A stretch of 64,000 nucleotides of DNA from Motilibacter rhizosphaerae (GTDB lineage: Bacteria > Actinomycetota > Actinomycetes > Motilibacterales > Motilibacteraceae): NCBI RefSeq assembly GCF_004216915.1, contig NZ_SGXD01000001.1, forward strand, positions 945,013 through 1,009,012, read 5' to 3'. Under the pieces are notes generated by a model that worked only from the letters and a program-made list of their open reading frames with translations, did not search any database and was not told the DNA's origin. The translations under genes and the position numbers were made by a program. Within the stretch, counting starts at the first letter, position 1, and each line of letters starts with the position of its first letter. Shown here in pieces: positions 4,647 through 59,778 of the stretch.

Positions 4647-5879
4647 ATGACCACTTCCACGAAGAACGCCCTGGTAGCAGCGGGTGCCGCCGTCTCGGTC
4701 GCGCTCCTCGGGGGCGCGACAGCCGCGTCGGGAGCCACCACCTCGTCGACGGCCACCGCTGCGCCGGCGGCGTCCGCCAGCCCTGGCACGGGCTGGGCCG
4801 GCGTCACCCGCGAGCCCGTATCCATCGCGATGGGCCAGGGCTGGACCGCGGGCGGCGAGCTCGACTACCCCGCCGGCGCCACTGGTCGCCTGCCGGTGCT
4901 CGTGCTCCTGCACGGCAGCGGTCACAACGACCGCGACCAGACGCTGCCCGGAGGCGCGGGCTCGACGTTCGTCCCCATCGCGCAGGCCGCCGTCGCGAAG
5001 GGGTACGCGGTGCTGCGGTTCGACAAGCGCGGCGTCACCGGGGTGGGGCCGGTGCTGAGCACGGACGCGGCACAGCTGGCGCCAGCGCGTCCGTACCGCC
5101 GGATCGTGGAGGACGCGGCGGCCGTCGTGCGCTTCGCCGCGCGCTCGCCGCACGTCGACCCCTCGAAGATCTTCCTGCTGGGGCACAGCGAGGGCACGCA
5201 GGTCGCGAGCAACCTCGCCGCGCACCCGGGGACCTACGGCATCCCGAGGCCTGCGGGCGTCGTCGAGATGGGTGTCGTGGGGATCGAGGTCGAGCAGCTC
5301 ATCACGTTCCAGGTCTTCGGGGTCAAGCTCGCGCGGCTGCACGAGCAGTTCGACGTCGACGGCGACGGGACCCTGACGTACCGCGAGGCCGTGGGCGGGC
5401 TCGTCGGCCAGTCGCGGGCGAACCGCGCGCTCCTTCGCCCGGTCCTGCTCAGGGGTAGCCGCGTCAACCCGACCACCGACCGCAACCACGACGGCCGCAT
5501 CAGCATCGACGGGGAGGTCGGTCCGGTGCTGCGCAAGGCCGCCGGCGTGGACCGCTACCCGGACCTCACCGGCGTCGACGCGGCCACCCGCAGCTACCTC
5601 GCCGACATCGCGAGGTACCCGACAGCGGCGCAGGAACTGCCGCGCTACGGCGGACCCGTCCTGCTGCTCAACGGCCAGGACGACATCCAGACACCCGTAC
5701 GCGCCGCCATCGTCACCGACGCTGCGCTCAGTGCGGCCCGCGTCGAGGACCACACGCTCATCACCTACGTGGGCACGGCCCACACGATGAACCGGACGCC
5801 GAAGCTCGACCCGAAGTACGGCCCGCCGGACACCAGTGTCGTGGCCGACATCTCCCGCTGGCTCGAGGCGCACCGCTGA
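4647..5879 (+). CDS. Secreted alpha/beta hydrolase with EF-hand-like calcium loops
   Basis: The protein has 410 residues, with an N-terminal signal segment (ALVAAGAAVSVALLGG, then Ala/Ser/Thr-rich). The oxyanion motif is LLHGSGHNDRD, the nucleophile Ser181 is in GHSEGT, the acid is in NGQDDIQTP and the His in GTAHTMN. Between the nucleophile and the acid sits an insertion holding a canonical EF-hand loop, DVDGDGTLTYRE (residues 236-247), and a second loop, DRNHDGRISIDGE (278-290). This suggests an extracellular, calcium-stabilised or calcium-regulated esterase/peptidase. The ATG at 4647 is chosen because the signal peptide begins there. Confidence 0.85.
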   Translation: MTTSTKNALVAAGAAVSVALLGGATAASGATTSSTATAAPAASASPGTGWAGVTREPVSIAMGQGWTAGGELDYPAGATGRLPVLVLLHGSGHNDRDQTLPGGAGSTFVPIAQAAVAKGYAVLRFDKRGVTGVGPVLSTDAAQLAPARPYRRIVEDAAAVVRFAARSPHVDPSKIFLLGHSEGTQVASNLAAHPGTYGIPRPAGVVEMGVVGIEVEQLITFQVFGVKLARLHEQFDVDGDGTLTYREAVGGLVGQSRANRALLRPVLLRGSRVNPTTDRNHDGRISIDGEVGPVLRKAAGVDRYPDLTGVDAATRSYLADIARYPTAAQELPRYGGPVLLLNGQDDIQTPVRAAIVTDAALSAARVEDHTLITYVGTAHTMNRTPKLDPKYGPPDTSVVADISRWLEAHR

Positions 5880-8726: not shown

Positions 8727-8820
8727 ATGAGGACGTCCGCTTCCCGTCTCCTCGAGCAGATGCGCAGAACCTAGCGTGGCACGCACGAAGGGCGAGACGA
8801 GGACCGAGGAGGACACCACG

Positions 8821-9600
8821 ATGACCACCACCCCCGAGTACCAGATCCCGGTGTACGACCACCGCCCGGGCGCCGGCCCCACCCTCGTGCTCCTGCACTA
8901 CTGGGGTGGTTCGGCGCGCACGTGGGACCCGGTGGTCGACCGGCTCCCCGGCCGCAGCACCCTCACCATCGACGCCCGCGGCTGGGGCCGCTCGCGCGAT
9001 CTGCCCGGCCCGTACGACCTGGAGCAGCTTGCCGAGGACACGCGCCGGGTCGTCGAGACCGTCGGGCTCGACGACTACGTCCTGGTCGGGCACTCCATGG
9101 GTGGCAAGGTGGCCCAGCTCGTCGCCGCCGCACGCCCCGCCGGCCTGCGCGGCCTGGTCCTCGTCGCCCCAGCCCCCGCCGAGCCTCCGGCGCACGTCAC
9201 GCCGGACTACCAGGACGCTCTCTCCCACGCGTACGACTCGGCGGACGCCGTCGAGGGGGCCCTCGGCGCGGTGCTCACCGCCGCACCGCTGCCCGCGCAG
9301 GTGGTGGCGCAGGTGGTCGAGGACTCTGTCGCCAGCACCCCGCAGGCGCGCGCCGAGTGGCCGTTGCACGGCATCGCGAGCGACATCACCGCGCAGACCC
9401 AGCGCATCGGCGTCCCTGTGCTCGTCCTCGCGGGAGAGCGGGACGAGGTCGAGCCCCCGCACGTCCTCGCCGACCACCTGGTGCCCTACCTGGCCGACGT
9501 GGAGCTCGTCGTCGTGCCCGGCAGTGGGCACCTCCTGCCGCTCGAGGCGCCCGTCGAGGTCGCGGCCCGGCTGGCGGCCTTCACGGCAGTGGCAGCCTGA
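8821..9600 (+). CDS. Alpha/beta hydrolase
   Basis: The protein has 259 residues from ATG (MTTTPEYQIPV), preceded by a good GAGGAG ribosome site. Motifs are LLHYWGGSARTWD for the oxyanion hole, GHSMGGK for the nucleophile Ser, AGERDEVEPP for the acid and PGSGHLLPLEAP for the catalytic His. Resemblance is to the 3-oxoadipate enol-lactonase/esterase branch, but the substrate is unknown. It is divergent from the AraC gene. Confidence 0.88.
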   Translation: MTTTPEYQIPVYDHRPGAGPTLVLLHYWGGSARTWDPVVDRLPGRSTLTIDARGWGRSRDLPGPYDLEQLAEDTRRVVETVGLDDYVLVGHSMGGKVAQLVAAARPAGLRGLVLVAPAPAEPPAHVTPDYQDALSHAYDSADAVEGALGAVLTAAPLPAQVVAQVVEDSVASTPQARAEWPLHGIASDITAQTQRIGVPVLVLAGERDEVEPPHVLADHLVPYLADVELVVVPGSGHLLPLEAPVEVAARLAAFTAVAA

Positions 9601-57760: not shown

Positions 57761-59266
57761 TCAGCCCTTCACCACGACGTAGGCGCGGTGACCGAGGACC
57801 GCGCGGAGCGCGCTGCCCCCGCGCACGGCCTTCGCCACGGGCGTCGGGAGCGCCACGGTGGCATCACCCTTGCCGTTCAGCCGCACCCGCACGGCGGACA
57901 CCCACCGGTGGTGCGCGCGGTACTGCACGACGACGTACGCGCCGTGCGCGCGGGTCGGGAAGTCGAGCGCCACGCGGGTCGCGCGGAGCAGCCGCAGGAT
58001 CGGCTCCGGTGCCGGTCTGCCGTCCTTCGCCACGCTGCCGGCCGGGAGCGTCGACGACGCGCTGGGGGAAGGTGCGGCGGTCGTGGTGGGGGTCGTCGCC
58101 GGCGGCTGCGGCACCTCGGGAGCCGACGGCGGCGTGGCCGGCGGGCTCGCGCCCACGGTGGGCGACGGGCTCGCGGCCACGCTGGGCGTCGGGCTCGCGG
58201 ACTCGGTGGGCGTCGGGCTCGATGACGCCGTGGGAGCCGGCGGGAGCGTGACGACCGGGCTCCAGACGTCGCGTCCGGCGCGGTCCGGCAGCTGGTCGAT
58301 GCCGGTCGTGCCCGGCAGGAAGACATCGTCGATCACCGACAGCGAGGTCGCCGGTCCCAGTGCACTGACCGGGAAGCTCATCGACAGCGTCCGGGCTGCG
58401 GCGTCGCGCACCACGGCCGTCTCGGTGCCGGCCACCGCGTACCCGGCGGACGTGGTGAGCGCCGCCTTGCCATCCGGACCATAAGGGGCGGCGTAGAAGT
58501 CGGTCGTCCCGTCCCCGTCGACGTCGATGTCCGTGAAGAACAGGAGGTTCGCAGTGTCCGGGCTCCAGTCCGCCAGCCGGACGGAGAAGGTCACCACACT
58601 GCCGTCGCTGGTGACGGAGTGGGTGACGGCGTCGGCGGCCGGGGCCGCGACCACGTCGCCGGTCGGGTCGCTCCATCCCGTCGCGCGGACGACCTTGGGG
58701 TCGACGACGCCGGCAGGCCGCACCAGGGGGGTCCATGCCGTGATGTCGTTGGGGCAGCAGCCGTCCGGCGGCGAGAGCGAGGCGCGCGCCGCCGCCGCCG
58801 CGGGACTGCCGATGCAGTGCTCAGGCAGGGACACCGAGAGCGTGCGTGTCGCCGGGTCGGCGGAGAAGGGCTTCTGGCACTCCGGCGGGTAGTAGTAGCC
58901 GCCTTGCTGGGGCCTCGGGACGTTGGCGACGGGAGGGGATCCCTTGGACGCGACGAGCCGCACGTCGGCGGCTCCGTCCCCGTCCACGTCGACCTCCGCG
59001 TCGAGGAGGTCTCGCGGGCTGGCCGACGGGTCCCACGCGGCGAGCGTGGCTGTGAAGGTCACCGTGCCGTCCGCCAACGAGAAGGTGAAGCCGCTCACGT
59101 CAGCCCCGGGCGCGCCGTCGCCGACGGGATCCACCACCGACCCGCTGCCGGTGGCCGAGGGCGGGGGTGCAGCGGAGGCGGTGCCCTGGGCCGCGACCAG
59201 CGTCGCTGCTGCGGCGACGCCTCCTGCAGCGATGAGTGCTGCAACGGCCTGCCGTGCTCGTCCCAC
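57761..59266 (-). CDS. Secreted protein with DxDGDG motifs and Pro/Ser/Thr linker
   Basis: The protein is about 501 residues from GTG (VGRARQAVAAL). A signal peptide is followed by two similar beta-rich segments, each with an acidic DVDGDG motif (AEVDVDGDGAADVRLVA and TDIDVDGDGTTDFYAAP), then a linker of repeated S-P-T-P-type octamers and a C-terminal domain ending HRAYVVVKG. The DGDG motifs suggest calcium binding. I do not recognise an enzymatic domain. It converges on the SDR gene. Confidence 0.7.
   Translation of the reverse strand: MGRARQAVAALIAAGGVAAAATLVAAQGTASAAPPPSATGSGSVVDPVGDGAPGADVSGFTFSLADGTVTFTATLAAWDPSASPRDLLDAEVDVDGDGAADVRLVASKGSPPVANVPRPQQGGYYYPPECQKPFSADPATRTLSVSLPEHCIGSPAAAAARASLSPPDGCCPNDITAWTPLVRPAGVVDPKVVRATGWSDPTGDVVAAPAADAVTHSVTSDGSVVTFSVRLADWSPDTANLLFFTDIDVDGDGTTDFYAAPYGPDGKAALTTSAGYAVAGTETAVVRDAAARTLSMSFPVSALGPATSLSVIDDVFLPGTTGIDQLPDRAGRDVWSPVVTLPPAPTASSSPTPTESASPTPSVAASPSPTVGASPPATPPSAPEVPQPPATTPTTTAAPSPSASSTLPAGSVAKDGRPAPEPILRLLRATRVALDFPTRAHGAYVVVQYRAHHRWVSAVRVRLNGKGDATVALPTPVAKAVRGGSALRAVLGHRAYVVVKG
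58143..58238. repeat. Four tandem 24-base repeats (minisatellite inside a gene)
   Basis: Units begin GGGCTCG at 58143, 58167, 58191 and 58215, each 24 bases and about 75-90 percent alike. On the coding strand they give the 8-residue Ser-Pro-Thr linker repeat. Such repeats can vary in number between strains. Confidence 0.8.
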
Positions 59267-59778
59267 GTCCCCGCCCTCCCGTCGGCCCGCTGGTACGGGC
59301 GCCAGGGCCACTCAAGCGCATCAGTGGCACCTTCCGCGACGACTCGTGGAGGGAGTGGCGGCGTGACCGGTGATGGTGTGCGGATTCGTCACCAAAGGTC
59401 CGTTCTTCCTGGTGCGCGCGTGGACCAGCAGCTCGAGCCCACCGCGCGCTGGCGCCCGGGCGCCTGCACGAAAGGCAACGCTGTTGCCGTCGCGCTGCAT
59501 GATGCTGGGCTCGTCGCCGCGTACACCTTCTGCCGGGAGCTCTCGCAGGCTTCGCGCCTTCGCAACCCACGCACGAACTCCGGGTCCTGGAGTCCTCCGG
59601 CCGCCTGCGCCACCTCACGAGCAGGACCAGCGGTGCGCGTGTGCTCACCGTCGACGCCGTCGGCTGGCCGCAGCGTCGCTCGGCCGTTCGGCGAGCCGGC
59701 CAGGGCGTGAGGGCGCGATGAGGGGCAGGAAGACCTAGCGAGGCCGCCGGCTCCGCGCTCGCGGAGCCATCGTGCTGG
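59267..59778. other. Gene-poor stretch, possible decayed gene
   Basis: No open frame here looks convincing on either strand. Several short frames exist on both strands, but none has a good start, ribosome site and family match. The plus strand around 59420-59710 gives protein-like pieces in different frames, which would suit a decayed gene, but this is weak. Confidence 0.3.

Follow-up and report, generated by a model that had tools for sequence, protein, structure and literature searches.

Calcium sites in alpha/beta hydrolases are already known. The PepX of lactic acid bacteria is an alpha/beta hydrolase with calcium, and a single DxDxDG calcium loop is reported in its catalytic domain, with a double mutant of the loop being inactive (PMC10536834). 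MHETase and the feruloyl esterases also contain calcium, which is termed structural, and MHETase and feruloyl esterase B combine this site with an inserted lid of alpha-helices (PMC6461665). More generally, proteins of many folds bind calcium through Dx[DN]xDG loops, with the last ligand 2 to over 100 residues away (Rigden et al. 2011, PMC3123361). Where EF-hands are mentioned in two lipase reviews, the mentions concern PI-PLC, plus a broad statement that calcium activates some lipases via an EF-hand motif. In open-access PMC text, we found no description of an esterase of this kind with EF-hand loops in its lid. Family I.3 lipases of Serratia and Pseudomonas are RTX proteins with a beta-roll, and their calcium site is unrelated. 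To our knowledge, the calcium site of MHETase and feruloyl esterase B is not an EF-hand pair. A calcium-gated lid has reportedly been described for a Serratia lipase by Meier et al. in 2007.

In this study, we analysed a 64,000-nucleotide stretch of Motilibacter rhizosphaerae DNA (the window), in which the lid of one hydrolase carries two EF-hand-type loops. The features of this gene are as follows.

4647-5879, + strand: ORF of 410 aa encoding an alpha/beta hydrolase (Hydrolase_4/S33-like), the carrier of the loops (ORF and translation, Pfam)
4647-4775, + strand: N-terminal signal-like region and low-complexity linker, aa 1-43 (translation read by eye)
5181-5195, + strand: nucleophile elbow GHSEG, aa 179-183, with presumed Ser181 (invariance in the ten-protein alignment)
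5289-5618, + strand: lid insertion, aa 215-324 (alignment of relatives with and without loops; elbow-to-acid distances)
5352-5387, + strand: loop 1, a canonical 12-residue EF-hand loop DVDGDGTLTYRE, aa 236-247 (motif position; Pfam EF-hand_1 at aa 233-247)
5478-5516, + strand: loop 2, a 13-residue EF-hand-like loop DRNHDGRISIDGE, aa 278-290, with the acidic ligand at position 13 (motif position, conservation)
5682-5684, + strand: presumed catalytic acid Asp346 (invariant in the ten-protein alignment; role assigned from the fold)
5781-5783, + strand: presumed catalytic His379 (invariant in the ten-protein alignment; role assigned from the fold)

The ORF starts with ATG and has a GC content of 93% at third codon positions. 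In Pfam, its product matched Hydrolase_4 (S33) with an E value of 4e-9 (36.5 bits against a curated cut-off of 27) and Peptidase_S9 with an E value of 1e-6; Hydrolase_4 was matched by all ten loop-bearing proteins described below, at E values up to 1. Ser181, Asp346 and His379 stand in the order of the alpha/beta-hydrolase fold, and elbow residues G179, S181, E182 and G183 are invariant in 10/10 loop-bearing proteins. A sequence-only reading of this DNA had called the product a secreted alpha/beta hydrolase, and the Hydrolase_4 score above the cut-off and the invariant elbow, presumed acid and His bear out the hydrolase identity. The top NCBIfam model was esterase EstD (NF041096). The window protein has the core fold in common with EstD-type and other S33-like hydrolases; however, it scores 57.7 bits, far under the EstD cut-off of 600, which places it outside EstD, and its loop-free relatives have shorter lids. 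Judging from the signal-like N-terminal sequence read by eye, this serine hydrolase is probably secreted. N-termini resembling signals were also present in its relatives in the alignment. An AlphaFold model of the mature protein, made with six remote relatives, had a core that could be recognised, with blocks reaching pLDDT 89, and aa 210-332 (model residues 167-289) at a pLDDT under 50; the insertion predicted alone reached a pLDDT of 35 overall. A fold search with the mature-protein model, whose lid is without confidence, returned many esterases, a result that is silent on the lid.

The same reading had placed two EF-hand-like loops at 5352-5516, between nucleophile and acid, and both exist in the window hydrolase at exactly these coordinates. 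They sit in an insertion between the elbow and D346: the elbow-to-acid distance is 153-167 residues in the ten loop-bearing proteins versus mostly 102-145 in the relatives without loops (three at 77-80, one at 156, four not measured). Loop 1 consists of D1, D3, D5, G6, a hydrophobic residue at 8 and E12, and is the only one of the two that satisfies the definition of a 12-residue canonical EF-hand loop. Loop 2 has D1, N3, D5, G6 and I8, followed by Gly at 12 and Glu at 13, and needs 13 residues to reach its acidic ligand. Both share the ligand pattern and the following acidic residue with the EF-hand and Dx[DN]xDG loops (PMC3123361), but here they are located in the lid of an alpha/beta hydrolase, and the acid of loop 2 lies six residues past the motif in 9/10 proteins. 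The single PepX loop, in contrast, is found outside the lid, between strands 1 and 2 of the hydrolase, and its last Asp is four residues further along (PMC10536834). MHETase and feruloyl esterase B differ from the window protein in having a far larger lid of about 215 residues and disulphides (PMC6461665).

When aa 46-410 were shuffled 20,000 times with the composition preserved, a PROSITE-style 12-residue EF-hand-type pattern appeared in 0.3% of the shuffles and a pair of Dx[DN]x[DN]G cores in 0.02%. These frequencies, together with the conservation of the ligands, led us to reject a chance occurrence of the loops. Repeated DNA was looked for in the insertion and none was found. At 42 residues, the spacing between the two loops in the window protein is wider than in calmodulin loop pairs, where it is roughly 36 residues. 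The two loops may pair with each other. The entering helix of loop 2 is doubtful because Pro and Gly are present in the stretch directly ahead of it.

Pfam EF-hand_1 matched the whole protein with an E value of 2.3e-4 and 20.9 bits, under the cut-off of 25.4; when the insertion was scanned alone, the score was 25.0 bits over two stretches against the same cut-off. The lid stretch of a loop-2-only Deinococcus protein (L006) had no Pfam match. When a profile of the insertion was compared with solved structures, EF-hand proteins came first. NCS-1 had a whole-sequence E value of 7e-7, a score that is a sum of repeated matches, the best single stretch having an E value of 0.025. In this comparison, loop 2 was aligned to canonical EF-hands with one added residue before the Glu. 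Dockerins have two 12-residue loops with D or N at position 12. Loop 2 had been described as dockerin-like in the initial reading, a description that did not hold: its conserved acidic ligand is at 13 and not 12, position 12 is Gly, and dockerin families were absent from the Pfam scans of the protein, the other members and the insertion. By its sequence, loop 2 is an EF-hand-type loop with one extra residue. The scores under the EF-hand cut-offs would also fit acidic turns that merely resemble EF-hand loops and work without calcium, for instance in substrate binding or as helix caps. We regard this as very improbable, since the ligand pattern is kept over large evolutionary distances and two motifs are so rare in the shuffles.

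Homologues were collected with loop-bearing queries, which biases the collection towards finding the loop-bearing group. After the removal of duplicate loci and long neighbourhood loci, 68 relatives remained at E 1e-10, and 62 had a recognisable elbow. The motif was present after the elbow in 10/62 and absent from the other 52, and all ten came from one group; the loops are therefore unusual for the family, as had been supposed. Six relatives had no recognisable elbow and were left out of this count; an earlier scan of the whole proteins with a more permissive pattern found no motif in five of them and nothing but an Asp-rich tail in the sixth. In a maximum-likelihood tree made without the lid from 58 of the 68 relatives (leaving out the six that lacked an elbow and four in which no acid was recognised), the ten loop-bearers fell on one side of a branch with 100/99 support. 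Within this group, the two-loop clade was supported at 100/100 and the one-loop clade at 98/86; the placement of Polymorphobacter is unsure because its branch is very long (3.15).

The search of homologues for the insertion, which had been proposed with the sequence-only reading, found both loops in four relatives and loop 2 alone in five. The four two-loop relatives belong to one genus of a second family and are 52-54% identical to the window protein over the full length. The five loop-2-only relatives come from another actinobacterial family, Deinococcus (the laboratory strain D. radiodurans has a one-loop member on its MP1 plasmid) and Polymorphobacter. Pairwise identity among the ten proteins is as low as 20-26%, and only 19 of the 254 ungapped columns of their alignment are invariant, among them the elbow, the presumed acid, the His, and D278, G283 and E290 of loop 2. 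These three loop 2 residues are present in 10/10 proteins, N280 and D282 in 9/10, and the acidic residue stands at position 13 in 9/10. The exception is Polymorphobacter, where a one-residue alignment gap puts the Glu at position 12. Because the ligand positions are kept across such distant proteins, loop 2 is likely to bind calcium. The Polymorphobacter gene (L017 2258-3241, + strand) has no matching N-terminal third, and an IS630 transposase gene lies nearby; this gene may be truncated, yet its loop 2 is intact with the Glu at position 12. In the loop-free relatives L012 and L039, a DRDGN-type motif compatible with a loose Dx[DNS]x[DNS]G-like pattern is found about 81 residues before the elbow. 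Stretches resembling GSGPTDRDGN recur in many relatives after the first core strand.

Loop 1 is restricted to the clade of the window protein. D236, D238, D240, G241 and E247 are shared by the window protein and all four two-loop relatives (5/10), whereas the other five proteins do not retain the full set. In these five proteins, the two loops have the same spacing from the elbow, at +57 and +99. Ligand columns of the five two-loop proteins are identical in 9/10 cases against 47/110 for the whole insertion (p about 0.003 relative to the rate of the insertion itself), a comparison in which the proteins are not five independent samples because identity among the four relatives themselves is 82-87%. 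Within this clade, the conservation of the ligands makes calcium binding by loop 1 likely.

The lids of the loop-free relatives bear on the origin of loop 1. A turn of the form G-x-[LIVF]-[TDS]-x-x-[EQ], which corresponds to the second half of an EF-hand loop, was found at +47 to +54 from the elbow in 12/52 of them against 0.6 expected, and none of 2000 shuffles reached 12; the twelve are not independent events because most fall in a few clades of the tree. The second half of loop 1 is similar, with G-x-L-T at +62 and E as the sixth residue after the G, and the turn pattern is not strictly the same in every row. This resemblance points to an origin of loop 1 in place, at an old helix-turn, which is a lead and not proof because such a turn is also a common helix cap. 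Taken with the retention of loop 2 in all ten proteins and of loop 1 in half of them, the turn would also fit a reading in which only loop 2 functionally binds calcium and loop 1 is a recent, weakly binding or neutral elaboration of a helix-capping turn. That reading seems improbable to us: loop 1 is more canonical than loop 2, and all of its ligands are kept in five proteins from two families, among which the window protein is just 52-54% identical to the other four.

We consider it fairly probable that calcium structurally braces the enlarged lid of a secreted esterase or hydrolase through loops 1 and 2. The product would be a serine esterase or peptidase-like hydrolase that is secreted and has gained about 35-50 residues in its lid. 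Loop 2, with its ligand shifted to position 13, would be the calcium loop common to the whole subfamily, and the clade of the window protein would have added the canonical loop 1 at a helix-turn already present in other lids of the family. Each loop would most likely hold one calcium ion and fix the lid helices over the active site, and this brace would operate in the calcium-rich medium outside the cell. A calcium-stabilised lid is likely because one of the loops, loop 2, is kept in distant relatives.

The sequence-only reading had gone further and proposed calcium control of the lid; genuine regulation by calcium, although possible, is less likely. In its explicit form, the lid would be closed or disordered without calcium and would open or become ordered outside the cell, so that calcium would act as an on-switch after secretion. 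The position of the canonical loop 1 in the lid, between elbow and acid, is consistent with such a gate, and the idea has reportedly been published for a Serratia lipase lid. The loops of the window protein are of the EF-hand type instead, and no RTX repeats were seen in its translation by eye. The outside medium usually fills such sites, leaving little to regulate. In addition, the activity of PepX is unchanged by calcium or EDTA, though one double mutant was inactive (PMC10536834). We therefore regard the gate as unlikely; for a secreted protein with plenty of calcium around it, it is simpler to assume a structural role. A stepwise assembly of an EF-hand pair in the enzyme lid, from a helix-turn through one 13-residue loop to a full EF-hand at the turn and a calcium-controlled lid, is doubtful as a complete scenario. 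If the structural brace or the switch is true, EF-hand-type loops in a hydrolase lid would be a simple device for extracellular esterases and useful in enzyme engineering. The graded series of no, one and two loops in one family would also be a good test case for the origin of EF-hands in a new place.

The gene is sparsely distributed. In its own family and order, a match was found in 1/5 genomes, namely that of the window itself, and in its own class in 6/393 genomes at E 1e-12, the window genome included. The second family had matches in 4/294 genomes, all from one genus (4/49 genomes of that genus), and a third family in 1/35. Profile searches for looser relatives found them in 57/393 genomes of the class and 25/396 of the phylum. 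Among plasmid records, 45 matched, of which 17 were Deinococcus; three different Deinococcus proteins were taken from these, and the Polymorphobacter relative was also found there. No close second copy was found in the same genome, where other hydrolases match weakly. Spread by phages or viruses was considered and rejected, since four scans of viral contigs were without any relative and a phage collection gave one partial match, to the core only. Next to the gene in the window, the opposite strand carries a glyoxalase-like gene as well as a two-component system, and neighbours differ among three of the four near relatives and from the window (crude gene calls, by eye). Because the neighbours vary and the occurrence is patchy within one genus, the gene behaves like an accessory gene that has no constant partner.

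Two other genes of the window were noted. A second alpha/beta hydrolase gene, without EF loops, lies at 8776-9600 on the + strand and adjoins an AraC-type regulator on the other strand. An ORF of 516 aa at 57761-59311 on the - strand, whose product is probably exported, had a weak match to FG-GAP_3 only (E 0.061). It contains two DxDxDG-type motifs in two similar-looking halves, as well as a Ser/Pro/Thr-rich linker, and its product is possibly another calcium-binding surface protein.
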